Virus record (IMG/VR): IMGVR_UViG_3300035698_000741
Location: 1 to 23,392 of that record
Length of the DNA: 23,392 bases
Direction: 5' to 3' (one strand)
Origin: a virus
Made by a program: the position numbers and the translations under genes. The notes under the pieces were generated by a model. The model did not search any database. It saw only the letters and a program-made list of their open reading frames with translations, and was not told where the DNA came from. Position 1 is the first letter of the stretch. Every line of letters starts with the position of its first letter. Below, one piece after another: positions 6,353 to 17,054 of the stretch.

Positions 6353-8347
6353 CTAAACCCAAGATTCGTAATTAGCACTTTTCTTTTCAAAAGCAATAAT
6401 GCAAGCATCCGATACGTTATCTGTAACGTCATCATTACCTGTACCGCTACCCAGTCCTGTAGCACCTAATATCTCCCGCATGATGTGGGCCTTGTGTACA
6501 TGCTCTGCTGGGAATAATATTCTTCCTTGAGCAAAGTAAGGTAAGGTGTTCATAAACCGTGAAGTTTTATCCGCGCCACTTCTATCTCTGGGTACGGGAA
6601 GGAGTCTGATATTTCCATCCCGCATAAATTGTTGATTCAAATAATGCCCACTGCTTTTATCTTCCATGTACAATGCTTTTGGAAGCAGTCGTGGAAAGTT
6701 TCTATCAAGCAGGTTATGTTTCTTCCAGAAGTTTATTAATTCTTCTTTAAGTTCTGGTGTCTCCCACTTACCTATCAGGGCATCTATCATTATCAATCTT
6801 GATTGATTATCAACTCCCCAATAGATAGCTACTGAGAAATCACTGTATGTTTGTATTGTTGAGGCTGTATCACAAGTTAAGAAAGTGCTGACAATCGAAC
6901 TCTTGTCCAGTTGCTCATACTCTTCCCACCATTCATCAGCCACTAAGCCTGAACCTTTGGCAATAGGGTCGCCCATATACTGAGAGTTAAATGTATAGGG
7001 TGTTGCTTTCTCCATTGCTAGGAGGCTTGTTAAACTTTTTCGGCTAGGCCATAACGCACAAGGGAACTCCGGTCTGTCTAAAGTAAACAGTATTGGAATT
7101 GCATGTGAGTAGTTGTGCCTAACTATTTGTGCGTCATACCATTCCTGTGTGCCTACATCATCCTTCTCGATCAGAGCTGGGATGTTTAGCCATAAGTATT
7201 TGTCTGTTGATCCGCCACGAAGTATATGCCCAACTAAGTCATCGTCGTGAACACGCTGCATGATGATTGCCATTGGTGTTCGACCACATGGTATCTCATT
7301 GCCATCTTCATCTTGGACAGAACCATCATTAGCCAACCGGCTCATAAAAGTATTATCATAGCGATCATTAATCTCTGACCGGACAGTGGCGCTATAAGCA
7401 TCTTTAGGTTTTATTGCATCATCAACGACGAAACAACCTGAGTACGTTGAGTGCAGTGTGCCTGCGCCTTTGCCTGTCATCTTGCCGCCTGTTGGGACAG
7501 CATGCATAACACCTTGCTTGGTAGTACCCCATTTTTCCAGTGATCGTTTAGCTGGATCAATTCTTACATTAGAGAAGACTCGCATGAATAACTCGTCAAG
7601 CATGACTGTTCTAATGTAACCACTACTCTCTTGCACAACGTCATCAGCATAAGAAGTAATAATGTTATGGCTGCTGGGGTTCTGGCAAAAAGAATACAAG
7701 GGTAAAAATATACTGAGGATTTGAGTTTTGGAATGTCGTGGTGGGATGGTTACGATAACTCGATCATAACCTTCTTCTCCATCAATCATGCGTTGACATA
7801 CATCAAACATAATTTCATGGAAGTCTTGCATTTGGAATCTAAAGCCCATCTGTATCTGGAAAGCCCAGAGACAAAACACTTTAAAGTTACTGCTCAATAT
7901 TATCCTAGCTTCTTCAAAGACTGCTGGGGATAATTTATTTATGTCTACGTCGAGTGGGTTCTTGATAACTTGTTGAACTAAGTCATCACATGCTTCCTCG
8001 CCCTTCTCTACTACTGCTTCTCCTTCTGTCCGGTCTGACTCACCTTTCTGAATAGTTTTCTTTATCTCATCAGCGAAGGCGGTGTTGTTCCTATAATCTC
8101 CAGTCTTAAGAGCTTTAGCTTGCGCTTTAACTAGGGACTTTAGTAAGGCATTTTCAGACAGGCCCATGCCATCTATTTCAAAGGCAAGGGATTCTTGATA
8201 TTCATCTTGAATGTATTGGGAGCCAGAAATCAGCTTCCGTATTTGGGGAAGGGTGTTTGATATACCACGGCTTCTGCTTACCTTAAGTAAGTCGCCGTAG
8301 TTTTGTAGTAGGAGTTGGACGAGATAATTCTCAGTATCTCTGTCCAT
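6353..8347 (-). CDS. terL: Terminase large subunit with long N-terminal extension
   Basis: 664 residues. The ATPase domain has a Walker A-type loop PPRHSKT at 202-208, a Walker B CFVVDD at 305-310, and between them TGKGAGTLHSTYSG as in P22/lambda-like large terminases. The RNase H-fold nuclease domain shows Asp493 (TCDTAST), Glu562 (MEDKSSG) and an acidic cluster NDDVTDNVSDA at 639-648. The enzyme pumps DNA into the prohead through the portal and cuts it. About 150 residues precede the recognisable ATPase, more than usual; they are helical and contain charged segments. No separate small terminase is obvious nearby. The start is ATG with AGGA six bases upstream. Confidence 0.92.
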   Translation of the reverse strand: MDRDTENYLVQLLLQNYGDLLKVSRSRGISNTLPQIRKLISGSQYIQDEYQESLAFEIDGMGLSENALLKSLVKAQAKALKTGDYRNNTAFADEIKKTIQKGESDRTEGEAVVEKGEEACDDLVQQVIKNPLDVDINKLSPAVFEEARIILSSNFKVFCLWAFQIQMGFRFQMQDFHEIMFDVCQRMIDGEEGYDRVIVTIPPRHSKTQILSIFLPLYSFCQNPSSHNIITSYADDVVQESSGYIRTVMLDELFMRVFSNVRIDPAKRSLEKWGTTKQGVMHAVPTGGKMTGKGAGTLHSTYSGCFVVDDAIKPKDAYSATVRSEINDRYDNTFMSRLANDGSVQDEDGNEIPCGRTPMAIIMQRVHDDDLVGHILRGGSTDKYLWLNIPALIEKDDVGTQEWYDAQIVRHNYSHAIPILFTLDRPEFPCALWPSRKSLTSLLAMEKATPYTFNSQYMGDPIAKGSGLVADEWWEEYEQLDKSSIVSTFLTCDTASTIQTYSDFSVAIYWGVDNQSRLIMIDALIGKWETPELKEELINFWKKHNLLDRNFPRLLPKALYMEDKSSGHYLNQQFMRDGNIRLLPVPRDRSGADKTSRFMNTLPYFAQGRILFPAEHVHKAHIMREILGATGLGSGTGNDDVTDNVSDACIIAFEKKSANYESWV

Positions 8348-8354
8348 TTATTTC

Positions 8355-8717
8355 CTATAAGAGTTCATCACCAGGTTCTACTTCGATGGGTTCATACTCT
8401 TCATCATTGTCTGTAGTATGTGTACTGTCTTTTCCAATCAAACTGGACTGACAATACGGGCATTCATTATTGGGTGAGAATAGGTATTCCTCATCTTTGA
8501 GGTAACTCCCACAGCTTTGACATTTCATGTCGTTCTCCACTTCTTGCACCAGTTCGACAGAGTACCCTTTGTCGATCTTCTTATTGTACTCAATAAGTGC
8601 CTCTTTGCTACTGGTATATTCTTTTACTTCATCTTGAGGTTGATCTGCACTACCAGAGTACCAAACATGGAGTATGTATTCTACAGTAGGGCTATTATTA
8701 TTAGTATTGTTACTCAA
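8355..8717 (-). CDS. Zinc-ribbon protein of unknown function upstream of terL
   Basis: 120 residues from a TTG start at 8717, supported by AAGGA six bases upstream. A CxxC pair at 66-69 (CQSCG) and another at 86-89 (CPYCQ) form a probable zinc ribbon. The first 60 residues look like a small alpha-beta domain (VEYILHVWYSG, then YTSSKEALIEYNKKIDKGYSVELVQEV). The C-terminus is acidic (DNDEEYEPIEVEPGDELL). It opens the packaging operon right after the intergenic gap and ends seven bases before terL, the place where a small terminase often sits. It does not look like known small terminases. A DNA-binding or packaging-associated role is inference. Confidence 0.62.
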   Translation of the reverse strand: MSNNTNNNSPTVEYILHVWYSGSADQPQDEVKEYTSSKEALIEYNKKIDKGYSVELVQEVENDMKCQSCGSYLKDEEYLFSPNNECPYCQSSLIGKDSTHTTDNDEEYEPIEVEPGDELL

Positions 8718-8861
8718 TGGGGTTCCTTATATTTTATCTTCTTAAGTTGTAGAGGTAGACACCAACCCAAGGAAACTTTACAGGTACTTTAAAGGTACTT
8801 GGAATAGTCTCTCTTAGGTCGGGGGTTTCTCGTACTTTTCCCTAAAGGGGGCCACTTGGCT
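8718..8861. other. Non-coding gap between RNA polymerase and late genes
   Basis: This 144-base gap is the longest one separating two minus-strand genes. It holds three 11-bp tandem repeats (8768-8800), a short G/C-rich stretch just after the RNA polymerase stop (8842-8860: CCCTAAAGGGGG and GCCACTTGGC), and a 13-mer, CTCTCTTAGGTCG at 8809-8821, that recurs once at 16198-16210. No convincing terminator or host-type promoter was seen. It is the natural place for a late promoter used by the phage RNA polymerase, or for a packaging site. Confidence 0.5.
8768..8800. repeat. Three 11-bp tandem repeats upstream of the terminase operon
   Basis: Plus-strand units are CAAGGAAACTT, TACAGGTACTT and TAAAGGTACTT. 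The last two differ at two positions near the left end; the first is more diverged. The 11-bp period is close to one helical turn, so repeated protein contacts would lie on one face of the DNA. The array lies 51-83 bases before the start of the zinc-ribbon gene. Operator, promoter element or packaging site are all possible. Confidence 0.55.
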
Positions 8862-10670
8862 TTATTCAAAGAATCTTGGACAGTTTTTCAGCGTCTCAAC
8901 ATCCCACGAACCCTCGATAGGAGGCTCTTCTAACTGCACTGAGTACAGCGACTCCCACTCCGCCTTTAGTGTCAGCAAGTAGTCGTCTTTGTACAAAGCT
9001 ATAAACTGCTCTACGATTATTTTGTAAAGCAGTTCGCTGTGATTTACATGGACTGCAAATGAGTCATGTATCCATATGCCATCAATATCCAATAGGCGTA
9101 ATGCCGTTGCACACATTCTTAGGTGTGTTGCATCAAGGGAGTGGATTACATTGGGAGCTATTTTGTTTCTTGCTGATACTAAGTCAGGTATCTTCTGACC
9201 ATTTATCCCCAGCTGGGGGACTAAGGTAGTGGCCCTGTACCGTCTTCCTTGGTAGACAGCACTCACCCTTTTCCGCTTGTACTTGTAAGCATCCTGCATA
9301 GCTTTAAAGCCATCAGGAGTCGTCCATTCAACTTCGCTTTCACCCGTTGTGTTCATAATGGTAGTGACGGAATCAACCAGCCAATTTCTACCTGCTACGA
9401 ATGGGGATAAAACCTCATTGACGCAATCAAACAGTAAACTGCCTAACTTGGCACACTCAGAGTACGTCAGTCCTTCACCAGTGGTTTTCCAGCCTCCATC
9501 TACCCATTGGGTAGGGGCCATGAATAAATCCCTCACAGCGTCCATGCTGGTCGTTCTGGTGGCACTGTACGGAAACGTCATCACAGACACCTTGCAGCTT
9601 TTTCTTGTTGCTAGGTACTTCATGTCCTCCGGTAAGTTCGTCTCCCAGTGTTTGGCAACATACTCATACATATCCAAACCATCGGGTGCTTCTTCAGGCT
9701 CCATCCCTAGTCGCGCTGATATGGCATTTGTTTTACTCAGTGCTGTCCAGTGTTGAAGGCCGGAGCAGCGACCATCTTTAGGGATGTATGCGGCTATCGG
9801 TTTTTCAGGGAACTCTACAGCTTGTCTAAGTAAGTCGGCCATTGCCATGAATGAGAACGGCTTATCAAAATCTTTCCATTCGTCCCTGTATTTCTTTGGG
9901 TCTTTTGCTATCTCTACGATGTGATCTTTGGTGAGTTCTACTTCTGCATACCCTAGAGCAGCCTCAATGAGCGCCAGCAAGCCAGCTCCAGTTACTACCT
10001 CAGTACGGGCAGGTATCACTAAAGCTTTCTCTGTGTCGCTTCCTTGTGGCGAGAAGCCCATAGTGGATTTAATATAGCCACGGCCACGACTATCCCTAAA
10101 CCAAGGAAATCTGAACTCTCGGCCTAAGTACTGGCTGGCATACTGCTTAGCTCTACTGTGGGCTAAGTACTGCGGGTCTTTCGGAGTACAGGGTGGGAAC
10201 TCTTCAAGTATATCGTAGATAAATTTGTTAATGGTGAAGTAGGGTTGGGCTAATGAGGACATTGCAAATGAGTTGGTGTCCTGTTCTTTACCTCGCCTTA
10301 CTTCATCGTATATCACGCCATCAACAGGGAAGACAGCAAACTTATCGGGCGGCTCTGCGGAGTTATAAAGTTCGTATAGTTTATTTGTAGGGATACAGTA
10401 CGCTATCGTTTTCTTCTTAACTCTTATCGTAAAGCTTTCAAAGTAGCCAGCACTCTCTAAAACCATAATAAACTTTAGGGCAAGTGCTGGGTTCTTCCGA
10501 TACATGTTTGCAAGTGATGATCGCTTGAATCTATGTTGCCCATGTTCAGGCTTACTGCACAGTTTATTATGCAGTCGTATCACACAGTCAAAGTAACCAT
10601 CAACATCTTCTTTTTTATAGACTGGAACCAAAGGAATAAGGGCATCAAGAATTGAATTAAAATTCTTCAA
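8862..10670 (-). CDS. Single-subunit T7-like DNA-directed RNA polymerase (short form)
   Basis: 602 residues. The T7-family catalytic motifs are intact with T7 spacing: DSRGRGY at 193-199, motif A DGRCSGLQHW with Asp299, motif B R356-K360-Y368 (T7 R627, K631, Y639), the NKIAPNVIHSLDATHLR segment, and motif C IHDSF with Asp536. About 195 residues precede DSRGRGY, against about 420 in T7, so the promoter- and RNA-binding N-terminal domain is greatly reduced. The C-terminus ends PRFFE rather than the T7 FAFA. Start is TTG at 10670 with GAGG six bases upstream. It should transcribe late phage genes. Its place between replication and structural blocks recalls phiKMV-like phages. Confidence 0.93.
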   Translation of the reverse strand: MKNFNSILDALIPLVPVYKKEDVDGYFDCVIRLHNKLCSKPEHGQHRFKRSSLANMYRKNPALALKFIMVLESAGYFESFTIRVKKKTIAYCIPTNKLYELYNSAEPPDKFAVFPVDGVIYDEVRRGKEQDTNSFAMSSLAQPYFTINKFIYDILEEFPPCTPKDPQYLAHSRAKQYASQYLGREFRFPWFRDSRGRGYIKSTMGFSPQGSDTEKALVIPARTEVVTGAGLLALIEAALGYAEVELTKDHIVEIAKDPKKYRDEWKDFDKPFSFMAMADLLRQAVEFPEKPIAAYIPKDGRCSGLQHWTALSKTNAISARLGMEPEEAPDGLDMYEYVAKHWETNLPEDMKYLATRKSCKVSVMTFPYSATRTTSMDAVRDLFMAPTQWVDGGWKTTGEGLTYSECAKLGSLLFDCVNEVLSPFVAGRNWLVDSVTTIMNTTGESEVEWTTPDGFKAMQDAYKYKRKRVSAVYQGRRYRATTLVPQLGINGQKIPDLVSARNKIAPNVIHSLDATHLRMCATALRLLDIDGIWIHDSFAVHVNHSELLYKIIVEQFIALYKDDYLLTLKAEWESLYSVQLEEPPIEGSWDVETLKNCPRFFE

Positions 10671-10684
10671 GTAACACCTCTATT

Positions 10685-11050
10685 TTACCAACGTGCTTTT
10701 TCACCTCTCACATCGACATGGGTAAAGCTTTCATACTCTCCCAAACCTAATAAGTTGGCGTAGTTTCTTGCCTCTAAGTAACGAAAGACTTTATGTGCAT
10801 CCACACCATCAACTTGGATGTCTGCTGCGATATGTAATTTATGTTTTGACATAGGCGAACCTCCGACAAACTCGTTATGCCACTTACAACGGAATCCTGA
10901 AGTTATCTCTACAACGGCGTTAAAGTGGACACGAACATCTTCCAAAACCAACAGTAGGGCAGTAGGTACTTCTCTATTCTTACTAGTACAAACTAGGTCT
11001 TTACACTTGCAGTCAAACTCACTGCTGTAGAAGTTATCCGATACCTTCAT
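10685..11050 (-). CDS. M15-type zinc peptidase, probable endolysin
   Basis: 121 residues. It matches the peptidase M15 (VanY/DUF882-like) domain. FRCKWHNEFVGG at 53-64 is followed by the zinc motif SKHKLHIAADI with His70 and Asp77, and THVDVRG with His111. The pattern SxHxxGxAxD is kept except that the Gly position is His73. Such phage enzymes cut peptide bonds in peptidoglycan (L-Ala-D-Glu or D-Ala links) to lyse the cell. There is no signal peptide, so release would need a holin, which is not visible next to it. Its ATG overlaps the dUTPase stop (ATGA), and the RNA polymerase gene starts 14 bases after its end. Confidence 0.82.
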   Translation of the reverse strand: MKVSDNFYSSEFDCKCKDLVCTSKNREVPTALLLVLEDVRVHFNAVVEITSGFRCKWHNEFVGGSPMSKHKLHIAADIQVDGVDAHKVFRYLEARNYANLLGLGEYESFTHVDVRGEKARW

Positions 11051-11559
11051 CGGCCAGTACTCCCAATACCACCCTCACCTCTATCGGTAGCTGCAAAACC
11101 ACCAACCTCTACAAACTTAACTTGCTTGAGGTAAGGCATGAATATCATCTGACACAACGCATCACCGGCTTTGATTTCTAAGAAGTCATGGCCTTCGTTG
11201 CGAAGCTTGATAAATATTTCACCTTGGTAATCTGCATCAATAATTCCGGCAGTGTTTGCCAAGCGAAGGTAATGCTTAAATCCTAAGCTGGATCGTGGAA
11301 CAATCATCCCAAACAACCCAAAAGGTGAAGTGTGGTTTTTGTGGTGTGTGTTAGAGCCAATGTGGATTTTTAAACCTGTTGGGATTTTCACATCACAACC
11401 TGGCATTAATCCAACATCTTCTGTTGAGTACAAATCAACACCAGCTGACTCTTCTGTTTGTTGGTAAGGTAATTCAAAAGGGTAGTGAGGTAATTTTATT
11501 ACTTCAATATCTCCGTAGTCATATCCAATATTGGCATAATTACTTTGTGCTAACTGCAT
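11047..11559 (-). CDS. dut: dUTPase (trimeric type)
   Basis: All five trimeric dUTPase motifs are present in order: ESAGVDLYS, VPRSSLGFKH, NTAGIIDADYQGEI (with the catalytic Asp), GDALCQMIF, and the C-terminal arm RGEGGIGSTGR. The enzyme hydrolyses dUTP to dUMP and pyrophosphate, keeping uracil out of DNA and feeding dTMP synthesis. I chose ATG at 11559 (170 residues) because AGGG lies about eight bases upstream; an ATG at 11592 would add 11 residues but has its GGAAG almost touching the start. Either start overlaps the end of the ribonucleotide reductase gene, so the pair is probably translationally coupled. Confidence 0.95.
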   Translation of the reverse strand: MQLAQSNYANIGYDYGDIEVIKLPHYPFELPYQQTEESAGVDLYSTEDVGLMPGCDVKIPTGLKIHIGSNTHHKNHTSPFGLFGMIVPRSSLGFKHYLRLANTAGIIDADYQGEIFIKLRNEGHDFLEIKAGDALCQMIFMPYLKQVKFVEVGGFAATDRGEGGIGSTGR

Positions 11560-13247
11560 TCTTTTTGCCCTGTCTCTTGATTTATGTAACATGCTTCCGC
11601 AGGTTCTTTTGGCGCTTCTACTTCGTTTAGAATTCCAAAGCGCTTTCCTTTTGGATTGAATGTCGTTACTCCTTTACAGCCCATTTCCCATGCCTTCATA
11701 TAAATACCTTTGAAGTCATCCCAATCCATTTCGGGATCGCAGTTAATAGTTTTAGAAACTGCTGAGTCACAGAACTGTGAAGCAATACCCAGTACTGATA
11801 AATGTTCATCAGCGGTGCATTCAGTTGCCTTCTTCCCCATCACGCCATAAAGGCGGTAAGCACAATCTTCTACCTTTTCTACAATAGGCCCGTCAAAGGT
11901 TTGAATAGTCCGGTCATAGTGGTGAGAAAATACTGGCTCAATACCCCCTGAAACATTATCTGCACATAGGCTGATTGTTCCGGTAGGTGCATAGGAAATT
12001 AAGTGGCTGTTGCGGATACCATACTCTGCAAGATCATCCTGAATATCTTGCGGTAAAGTATTTACAAACTTACTGGCAAGGAACTTCTCTTTATCAAATA
12101 AAGGAAAAGCCCCTTTCTCTTTCGCTAACTCAATACTGGCTCGGTAAAGTTCATTACGAAACAGTATTGCTACATCAGTGAACCACTCGTTAAATAAGGG
12201 GCTACCATAACTGTAACCAATAGACTCACCGGCATTTGCTACGGCTGTCATACCTAAACCCATACGGCGTTTATTTTTAGCTTCTTCTTCCTGAGCAACC
12301 AGTGGGTATATAGTGCGGTCGATAATGTTATCCATAGCTCTAACAACTACAGGAATATCCCTAGCAAAAGCCATTAAATCAAATTTACGATTATGGTCTA
12401 CATACTTCATCAGGTTAAACGAGCCTAATAAGCAAGCTCCATAGGGAGGAAGTGGTTGTTCTCCACAAGGGTTAGTTGCAGCAATCTGTTCACAGTAGTA
12501 GAGGTTGTTCATACGATTAATTGTATCGAGGAACAATACTCCAGGTTCGGCCCACTCCCATGTGGATCGCATTACTTTTTCAAACAGTGAACGAGCGTCA
12601 ACCCATTCATAGACACGGCCATCAAACATTAGTGGAAAGTCACCGCCATCACGAACAGCTTCCATAAATTTATCAGTAACACCAATAGAAGTATTGAAGC
12701 GGGTAAGCTTAGTTTCGTTATGCTTTGCTGTGATAAATTCTTCAATGTCTGGGTGGTCAACACGAAGGACAGACATTTGTGCGCCTCTCCGGTGGCCTGC
12801 TGCTGAGATTGTTCCGCAAATAGAATCACCAATATCCATAAAGGCAACGGGGCCTGTTGAACGTGACTCCAGTTTTGCGATCAAGTCACCTTTAGGTCGA
12901 AGGGTACTGAAGTCATAACCAATACCGCCACCAAGTCGCATAGTCTTCCCAGCTTCAGAATACTTATCCATAATGGAGTCGAACGAATCTTCTATCGTGC
13001 CACTAACAAAACAATTAAACGCAGTGACTTTACGTGGAGCGCCAACAGCTGCTTGAGTCCTACCACCACCCATAAAGCGTTGTTCTAAAACAATTTGCTT
13101 TAATGCTTTAAAGTGGTCTTGGTCATCTTTCAGTGCATTTGCAAATCTGATCTGAGACTCTTCAAAAGATTCTCCTTTGCCACGATATTTCATGGCGTGT
13201 ATTTCTTCACTTATAGGGAGTGTCGGCCCGTATTTAATATTGCTCAT
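11550..13247 (-). CDS. nrdJ: Class II (adenosylcobalamin-dependent) ribonucleotide reductase
   Basis: 565 residues, one chain. Cys79 (FNCFVSGT) and Cys272 (YGACLLGSFNL) form the substrate redox pair. NPCGE at 259-263 holds the thiyl-radical Cys261 with Asn259 and Glu263. GGGIGYDFSTLRP and YAPTGTISL are also typical. No partner beta subunit or NrdD-type glycyl-radical site is present, which fits the B12-dependent class. It makes deoxyribonucleotides from ribonucleotides for replication. The C-terminal tail has Cys553 and Cys564 ten residues apart, the likely thioredoxin relay pair, with wider spacing than the common CxxC or Cx4C. The length is short for the class, with little N-terminal regulatory sequence. 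ATG with AAGG seven bases upstream. Confidence 0.94.
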   Translation of the reverse strand: MSNIKYGPTLPISEEIHAMKYRGKGESFEESQIRFANALKDDQDHFKALKQIVLEQRFMGGGRTQAAVGAPRKVTAFNCFVSGTIEDSFDSIMDKYSEAGKTMRLGGGIGYDFSTLRPKGDLIAKLESRSTGPVAFMDIGDSICGTISAAGHRRGAQMSVLRVDHPDIEEFITAKHNETKLTRFNTSIGVTDKFMEAVRDGGDFPLMFDGRVYEWVDARSLFEKVMRSTWEWAEPGVLFLDTINRMNNLYYCEQIAATNPCGEQPLPPYGACLLGSFNLMKYVDHNRKFDLMAFARDIPVVVRAMDNIIDRTIYPLVAQEEEAKNKRRMGLGMTAVANAGESIGYSYGSPLFNEWFTDVAILFRNELYRASIELAKEKGAFPLFDKEKFLASKFVNTLPQDIQDDLAEYGIRNSHLISYAPTGTISLCADNVSGGIEPVFSHHYDRTIQTFDGPIVEKVEDCAYRLYGVMGKKATECTADEHLSVLGIASQFCDSAVSKTINCDPEMDWDDFKGIYMKAWEMGCKGVTTFNPKGKRFGILNEVEAPKEPAEACYINQETGQKECS

Positions 13248-16388: not shown

Positions 16389-17054
16389 CTACAGTAAGTC
16401 GTCTTCTTCTTCTTCAGCTTCTTCTTCAGCTTCAGCTTTTGGCTCGTCGTCCGCAATCAGGTCGTCAACTTCATCGGCTTCAAAATCGAAGTCGTCGTCG
16501 TCGTCAATCGAACCACCACCGCCACCTTCATAAGCAATAAGGTCTGATATAACAATCATACCTAGATTGATGGAAGTACCTTTACCGTGTTCTGGGTGAT
16601 TAAACTCAGTGATATTTAAACCAACAGTGGCTTGGCTACCATTACCAACTTTAACTTCTGATAAGTCTTCACGAATCTTCGATACGACTCTGGGCGCAGA
16701 TAAATCTTTAACTTCTTTGGTTACTTTATCTAAGTAGCCAGCATTAGCAGAAGCTCGAATAACAACATAGTTATCACCATCGTCAGTAAACGGTGGAGCA
16801 ACTTTGAAGTTTGTTTCAAACTCTTCGGCATCGTATTGAGTTATTGATAGCTTGGCGTGAAACTTCTTAATAGCCTTAGCAATCTTACGAGATACCAGAA
16901 TTTGTATGGGGTACTCACGCTCTGTGGCATCAACACCTTTCTTCTTGTATTTCGGTACGCCACCTTTTGCGTGTTGCAAGTAATATACAAATACATCTTT
17001 AAGTACCAGTACAGGTTTCTCATCGGTGAAGTTCTTGCCTTTCTTAATATCCAT
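16389..17054 (-). CDS. Single-stranded DNA-binding protein, T7 gp2.5-like
   Basis: 221 residues, close to T7 gp2.5 (232). The body (residues 1-180) is strand-rich and basic, as for an OB-fold binding protein; the last 40 residues are almost wholly Asp and Glu after a GGGGGS linker, ending EEEEDDLL. In T7 the acidic tail with its terminal aromatic residue contacts polymerase and helicase and mimics DNA. Here the tail ends in two leucines instead. The tail is encoded by GAAGAAGAA and GACGACGAC runs (16400-16506). The gene lies next to DNA polymerase, as expected. ATG with AGAGGA upstream. The family call rests on size, tail and context. Confidence 0.82.
   Translation of the reverse strand: MDIKKGKNFTDEKPVLVLKDVFVYYLQHAKGGVPKYKKKGVDATEREYPIQILVSRKIAKAIKKFHAKLSITQYDAEEFETNFKVAPPFTDDGDNYVVIRASANAGYLDKVTKEVKDLSAPRVVSKIREDLSEVKVGNGSQATVGLNITEFNHPEHGKGTSINLGMIVISDLIAYEGGGGGSIDDDDDFDFEADEVDDLIADDEPKAEAEEEAEEEEDDLL

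Follow-up and report, generated by a model that had tools for sequence, protein, structure and literature searches.

A short T7-like RNA polymerase as a probable second polymerase in a Chaseviridae-like phage

The window, by which we mean the whole stretch of 23,392 bases that was analysed, is an IMG/VR virus record and a fragment ending in head genes. It is colinear with Pectobacterium phage PM1, in that 17 of the 28 window proteins other than the polymerase treated here, RNAP-A, match PM1 proteins, eight of the larger ones at 42-61% identity; the portal protein stands at 61%, the large terminase subunit (TerL) at 58%, MCP at 57% and the DNA polymerase at 54%. Gene order and these identities place the window beside the Chaseviridae, phages with contractile tails and genomes of 52-56 kb carrying terminal repeats of about 3 kb. 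Between the dUTPase and TerL genes PM1 has small ORFs only; in the window this interval codes for an M15 peptidase, for RNAP-A and for a small zinc-ribbon protein (Table 1). The window also encodes a T7-like replisome, primase/helicase included, and a gp2.5-like SSB at 16389-17054, recognised by PHROG. A separate observation is the large subunit of a ribonucleotide reductase (565 aa, 11550-13247), for whose small subunit the PHROG scans of the window proteins gave no match.

Table 1. Features of the RNAP-A locus in the window, and elements located in related loci
Feature	Position	Strand	Basis
RNAP-A, N-terminally and thumb-reduced single-subunit RNA polymerase, 602 aa	8862..10670	minus	Pfam, PHROG, model, alignment
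Shine-Dalgarno-like GAGGTG ahead of TTG start	10675..10680	minus	read from letters
M15 peptidase, complete gene, adjoins RNAP-A upstream	10685..11050	minus	Pfam + PHROG
Residues 1-60, stand-in for T7 residues 1-209 (in T7 the site of the AT-rich recognition loop, 93-101)	10491..10670	minus	profile alignment
Residues 77-94, predicted beta hairpin matching T7 intercalating hairpin (232-242)	10389..10442	minus	AF2 + alignment
Residues 149-181, shortened thumb, two short helices (T7 thumb 326-411)	10128..10226	minus	models + alignment
DSRGRGY motif, residues 193-199	10074..10094	minus	pattern search + merged alignment
Catalytic Asp299 (= T7 D537)	9774..9776	minus	alignments; invariant in 28 aligned family rows
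R356-K360-Y368 (= T7 R627-K631-Y639)	9567..9605	minus	alignments; invariant in 28 aligned family rows
Residues 464-485, predicted long beta hairpin at T7 specificity loop (740-769) place	9216..9281	minus	model + alignment
HD with catalytic Asp536 (= T7 D812)	9063..9068	minus	alignments
144-nt noncoding gap, RNAP-A to next gene	8718..8861	minus	folding z -2.71 vs shuffles
Small CxxC..CxxC zinc-ribbon-like protein, between RNAP-A and TerL	8355..8717	minus	Pfam, below cut-off
Terminase large subunit, first gene of structural module	6353..8347	minus	58% to PM1
Second, Chaseviridae-type polymerase, 629-730 aa	L049 6085-8277; L052 7735-9624; L055 10588-12585; L062 3691-5643		profile search
Structured RNA element behind RNAP-A	L018 11618-11730; L010 2299-2420; L040 11618-11765; 9 other flanks		covariation

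An earlier note had read the gene at 8862-10670 as an unusually short single-subunit RNA polymerase, and the enzyme class is borne out by the match to Pfam RNA_pol (E 5.7e-46) and by the aligned catalytic residues, the signature of the single-subunit (T7-type) superfamily being present in order (DxxGR, the motif A Asp, the motif B R-K-Y and the motif C Asp). The profile phrog_414 (RNA polymerase) also matches, at E 1.1e-75, with only positions 367-815 of its 816 covered, and a back-translated FRDSRGRGY pattern occurs once in the window and in none of 100 shuffles. The start codon is TTG, with GAGGTG 4 nt upstream. An in-frame TAG at 10682-10680 lies four codons before this start, which leaves an open frame of 605 codons, and the M15 gene is complete; a hidden N-terminal extension, which the note had named as a refutation, is therefore excluded.

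Both the profile-profile alignment against nine normal-length enzymes (E 1.9e-68) and the merged alignment pair D193 of DSRGRGY with T7 D421, and therefore 192 residues lie ahead of the motif compared with 420 in T7, in keeping with the roughly 195 and 420 first counted. The proposal that all motifs keep T7 spacing held for the R-K-Y group, where the intervals (4 and 8) are identical, but the other three are shorter than in T7, at 106 against 116 residues for D193-D299, 57 against 90 for D299-R356 and 168 against 173 for Y368-D536. The catalytic residues are unchanged in 28 of 28 aligned family members. An unusual change in the near-universal DxRGR motif was seen in some relatives, the RNAP-A of L010, L012, L028, L032 and L038 having DSRSR and that of L009 and L034 CSRGR.

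The landmarks of the T7 enzyme, as given in PMC5524818, are the AT-rich recognition loop (93-101), the intercalating hairpin (232-242), the thumb (326-411) and the specificity loop (740-769). The profile alignment starts at RNAP-A residue 61, which equals T7 210, and thus T7 1-209 is represented by 60 residues. The merged alignment places residues 20-40 at T7 106-126, past the AT-rich loop, in a weakly aligned region, and the structure aligner began its pairing at model residue 1 and T7 residue 48 (1cez_A) while giving no residue map; we therefore infer the loss of the AT-rich recognition loop from length and alignment. The promoter-melting, or intercalating, hairpin is retained: residues 77-90 pair with T7 227-245 in the merged alignment, and the AlphaFold2 model of RNAP-A (mean pLDDT 87.2, pTM 0.85) has hairpin strands at 77-84 and 87-94. 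The model of the relative L038 (pLDDT 87.8, pTM 0.81) has the same hairpin at 90-94 and 99-103, and in both models a long hairpin occupies the specificity-loop position. The thumb has roughly half its T7 length, the 75 residues of T7 333-407 pairing with 31 of RNAP-A (150-180) in the merged alignment, so the shortening is not confined to the N-terminus.

The structural comparison with T7 and mitochondrial polymerases proposed in the note was made, and the polymerase fold was matched. Against the T7 promoter complex 1cez_A the RNAP-A model scored Z 26.0 (rmsd 3.6, 577 aligned) and the L038 model Z 31.5 (rmsd 3.9, 568 aligned), and the match to the yeast mitochondrial enzyme 8c5u_A scored Z 33.4 (rmsd 5.5, 519 aligned). 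The yeast mitochondrial and T7 polymerases were the best solved-structure matches of the models, a fold match being no proof of function. A separate T7-type N-terminal domain (PF14700, RPOL_N) was found in none of 13 family records, with five of five normal-length controls positive. A domain encoded elsewhere was rejected on this count; N4 also scored 0, so that a very divergent domain could escape. The suggested reduction of the T7-type N-terminal domain thus stands as to length and the lack of PF14700 in the 13 records, but not as to the promoter-melting hairpin, which is kept. Sequence and models together show that the catalytic motifs are complete, that the specificity loop and the intercalating hairpin are present, and that T7 1-209 is reduced to about 60 residues, in which an AT-rich recognition loop has no evident room.

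Relatives were collected in two scans of IMG/VR. Of the 39 loci in the first scan, 37 (L001, L009-L044) were close relatives and two (L045, L046) were normal-length outsiders; the second yielded 47 loci, 39 of them counted as close relatives and eight (L127-L134) not counted as family, seven being of normal length and L134 having 155 aa only. For the length count we left out L001, L031 and L043 (5' cut), L017, L037 and L039 (3' cut), and the non-family, normal-length L045 and L046. All 32 complete relatives, several of which are near copies of each other, measure 590-627 aa, 31 with a Shine-Dalgarno-like site at the start plus L118 at 615 aa, so that with the window there are 33 complete short sequences. 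The frames of the 31 span 594-657 codons even from stop to stop; on these grounds the short form is a conserved trait of the family. Conservation was read from an alignment of 28 sequences. Among 50,697 phage records the window protein matched 2,379, none at 60% identity or above and the best 60 of the 2,379 at no more than 30%, and a query with L042 gave none of 2,494 matching records at 80% coverage. A plasmid home was rejected, there being four weak plasmid records only (24-28% identity), and so was a prophage home: searched with two short peptide patterns, genome_contigs gave 17 stretches with one or the other, of which none was confirmed, and a prophage lacking both patterns could escape such a search.

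The family members carry another polymerase. A second, divergent open frame matching Pfam RNA_pol was present in six of 13 family records, and a four-protein profile found the second polymerase in all nine records of 52 kb or more (52.5-59.0 kb), four of which had supplied the profile and one of which (G003) has the gene split over the contig ends. With two shorter records, G011 and G013, the total comes to 11 of the 18 family records besides the window; the seven records without it are all fragments of 22.6-32.8 kb. It was not seen in the window either, where the contig stops 12.7 kb upstream of RNAP-A. In G013 the gene (140-1999) has one in-frame stop, TAA. The best listed matches of the second polymerase among isolates are Chaseviridae polymerases at 26-35% identity, and its motifs are DxRGR, DAKxSG and HDCF. 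As a side observation, the region 3' of the second polymerase in G003 (L073 766-860) holds three copies of a GAACTATAGGTAGAG-like repeat spaced by 39 bp, with two further intergenic copies, possibly a candidate array of early or middle promoters.

A tree was built of 37 sequences, each taken from DxRGR to its C-terminus. The 14 family members included in it all fall into a single RNAP-A clade (100/100), which joins nine normal-length T7-like enzymes (100/99), with Syn5 falling outside the grouping of RNAP-A and the remaining T7-like enzymes (99/93). The second polymerase groups with the Chaseviridae enzymes (100/99), and RNAP-A is in neither the Chaseviridae nor the N4 clade; thus RNAP-A looks like an acquired second polymerase of the T7 lineage and not a duplicate. 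Long branches meet in this tree, as the program cautions, which leaves the exact sister of RNAP-A unsure.

Comparison with known enzymes suggests where RNAP-A is new and where it has precedent. Seven phage enzymes of the Autographiviridae type (779-883 aa) are its nearest by profile, at 130-214 bits, and by the tree, and they have the catalytic residues, hairpin and specificity loop in common with it, but they carry the T7-type N-terminal domain where tested, whereas RNAP-A is without PF14700 and has a thumb of half length. Of the Chaseviridae phages PM1, ST32, 4HA13, Myduc and SNUABM_27, PM1 is colinear with the window, as noted, and all five have short enzymes too, but their own polymerase lies in the other clade and at another genome position. 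These five Cleopatravirinae RNAPs have 631-647 aa and 212-217 residues before DxRGR, compared with 350-413 in the four enzymes tested from Aeromonas and Shewanella Chaseviridae phages (L065, L066, L067, L072), so length varies inside the Chaseviridae. RNAPII of N4, made of gp15 and gp16 (673 aa over two chains), is presented in PMC4496689 as a minimal enzyme in which both the N-terminal domain and the thumb are truncated; it binds single-stranded DNA only, its recruitment depends on the single-stranded DNA-binding protein gp2, and its genome has more than one phage polymerase. RNAP-A shares with it the two truncations and the presence of more than one phage polymerase in a genome; N4 RNAPII has 235 residues before its DKRGR. 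RNAP-A differs in being one open frame, not the two chains gp15-gp16 of Schitoviridae, and in belonging to another clade. The N4 gp2 family (phrog_4099) was found in none of 14 family records, several of them fragments, with N4 itself found (1/1), though a remote homologue or a different activator could escape this search. A single query with N4 gp15, run with no positive control, found nothing in 18 of 18 records. Mitochondrial RNA polymerases share the fold but bear N-terminal extensions, the opposite of RNAP-A, and their dependence on helpers (PMC7939475) is a likeness to RNAP-A only as an idea.

The word "unusually" in the note's description must consequently be qualified: RNAP-A is short across its family, but it is not unique in this, given N4 RNAPII, the five Cleopatravirinae enzymes and the entries in BFVD, where short polymerases have rows of 499, 527, 584 (marked fragment) and 599 aa, the completeness of these entries being unconfirmed, and where phiEcoM-GJ1 has a 648-aa model row. 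For the same BFVD entries we gave up "smallest known" as a description. Precedents for shortness as such are N4 RNAPII and the five Cleopatravirinae enzymes, and what sets RNAP-A apart is its context, as a second lineage of polymerase within a Chaseviridae-like phage. Among the papers listed, no title or opening of an abstract concerned a second polymerase in Chaseviridae-like phages, the subscription literature being mostly outside the reach of the search. As far as our searches reach, what is new is the single-chain reduction in the T7 lineage, its family, and its place as the second polymerase of this Chaseviridae-like group.

RNAP-A holds a conserved position ahead of the terminase and head genes: TerL was recognised after it in 29 of 37 loci, the other eight ending inside RNAP-A or within 1 kb, with unrecognised genes between the two in some loci. 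An RNAP-A-like gene was found in none of nine isolated Chaseviridae, where the RNAP-A profile finds only the phage's own annotated polymerase, at 26-41 bits. A counterpart of the zinc-ribbon-like protein was recognised in L001 only (E 1e-4), and a CxxC..CxxC start is readable at the same place in L020; the protein is a possible candidate partner of RNAP-A and not a universal one.

The noncoding gap behind RNAP-A in the window folds into a long hairpin better than shuffles and is a possible place for a late promoter or leader; it contains CCCCTTTAGG, which is common to the L001 and L009 flanks. In the large subclade, GCTAATGGTAAG occurs in 11 of 25 nonredundant 3' flanks with at most two mismatches; shuffled flanks gave 0.14 on average and random 120-nt pieces 0.59. 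These statistics are circular because the motif was taken from the same flanks. The window gap has no close copy (five mismatches). Nor is GCTAATGGTAAG repeated in the manner of T7 promoters: at one mismatch or fewer and outside ORFs of at least 100 aa, 12 records held only the copies behind RNAP-A (G003, G008, G011 and G012) and one at G003 2952, and at up to two mismatches the matches are scattered, most of them inside such ORFs, so that it was rejected as a repeated promoter motif. Repeated intergenic 10-mers had counts at, or at most four above, the maxima of five mononucleotide shuffles, standing out most in G005 (7 vs 3-4) and G003 (7 vs 4-6). Near RNAP-A there were three sigma70-type sites against a mean of 4.9 and four terminator-type sites against 2.5 (sd 1.6), and the motif and repeat searches of the window and its relatives found no promoter for RNAP-A.

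The hairpin that follows GCTAATGGTAAG in the large subclade has compensatory changes at nine of 12 pairs. Its covariation score is 0.638, whereas shuffles give 0.247 and slid partners no more than 0.194. Of five measures of covariation four were above shuffles; the fifth, a count of additional pair types, was not (18 vs 16.3, with 139 of 500 shuffles as high). A covariance model of the element found one copy per source in nine of 48 sources, most of them loci that trained the model, their own records or near copies of them, with L118 as an independent match (E 4.4e-5); it found no copy in the window. Rfam gave nothing in the window at the gathering score and nothing in five loci at E up to 1. 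The junction behind RNAP-A in the large subclade may be a candidate late leader or promoter region, and we offer it as a lead only.

Taking the findings together, we put at about one in two the probability that RNAP-A is a T7-lineage polymerase with which a Chaseviridae-like phage transcribes its late genes from a short promoter, perhaps with a helper. Its parts differ in strength. Judging by its motifs and models, RNAP-A is very probably a reduced but active polymerase. Its place ahead of the structural genes suggests late transcription, a role for which we would give even odds, and the retention of hairpin and specificity loop suggests a short promoter, which we consider marginally the better bet. 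Early and middle genes would be read by the host RNAP and the Chaseviridae-type enzyme, after which RNAP-A would take over the terminase, head and tail genes; deprived of the AT-rich contact, it would use its specificity loop and the melting region to read a short promoter. By analogy with gp2 and N4 RNAPII, a DNA-bound helper may serve its opening or processivity, and since the gp2 family is absent from all 14 records searched, any helper would probably be another protein, for example the gp2.5-like SSB. We hold the need for a helper to be somewhat short of an even chance, the retained hairpin and specificity loop being suited to a helper-free enzyme as well.

That last point leads to the rather doubtful alternative of an enzyme that is reduced yet self-sufficient, its hairpin and specificity loop recognising and melting, unaided by any partner protein, a compact promoter of about -8 to +3. 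Besides the two retained elements, the candidate GCTAATGGTAAG copies in the flanks would agree with this, if one allows that the motif was drawn from those flanks, but they are not repeated in the genomes and are absent in that form from the window, and we know of no factor-independent enzyme as short as RNAP-A. The position just before TerL, in a phage with its own T7-like replisome, could instead point to an enzyme used mainly in replication or packaging, to make primers, or for DNA processing coupled to transcription near the terminase; we think this improbable, as the phage already encodes a primase/helicase and the late polymerases of phiKMV-like phages are also usually found beside structural genes. 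Less probable still is the reading as a duplicate or decaying copy of the Chaseviridae polymerase, for which one could cite that both are short single-subunit enzymes, in the Cleopatravirinae case. It is already contradicted by the tree and by conservation: the two lie in separate supported clades, RNAP-A and the PM1 polymerase are 21.5% identical over 209 residues, which with the tree rules out a recent duplication, the catalytic residues are invariant in 28 rows and the frame is open in 31 relatives.

Returning to the late-gene reading, it can be extended to an uncultured sister group of the Chaseviridae with a programme of two polymerases, in which the Chaseviridae-type enzyme would serve early and middle genes and RNAP-A would be dedicated to late ones, starting just behind its own gene, where part of the group has structured RNA, and needing a helper or open DNA; this fuller scheme is speculative and we consider it rather unlikely as a whole. 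If true, RNAP-A would be among the smallest single-chain transcriptases of the T7 lineage known. The family amounts to a natural deletion experiment, in which the stretch of the AT-rich contact and half of the thumb are gone while the melting hairpin and the specificity loop are kept, and with so small a single-chain enzyme one could ask which parts promoter choice, melting and processivity require; it would be a good test of the minimum that such an enzyme needs to start transcription. According to the ICTV profile of 2022, Chaseviridae promoters had not yet been identified (PMC12842549), and a sister group with two separable polymerases would offer two handles on that question.
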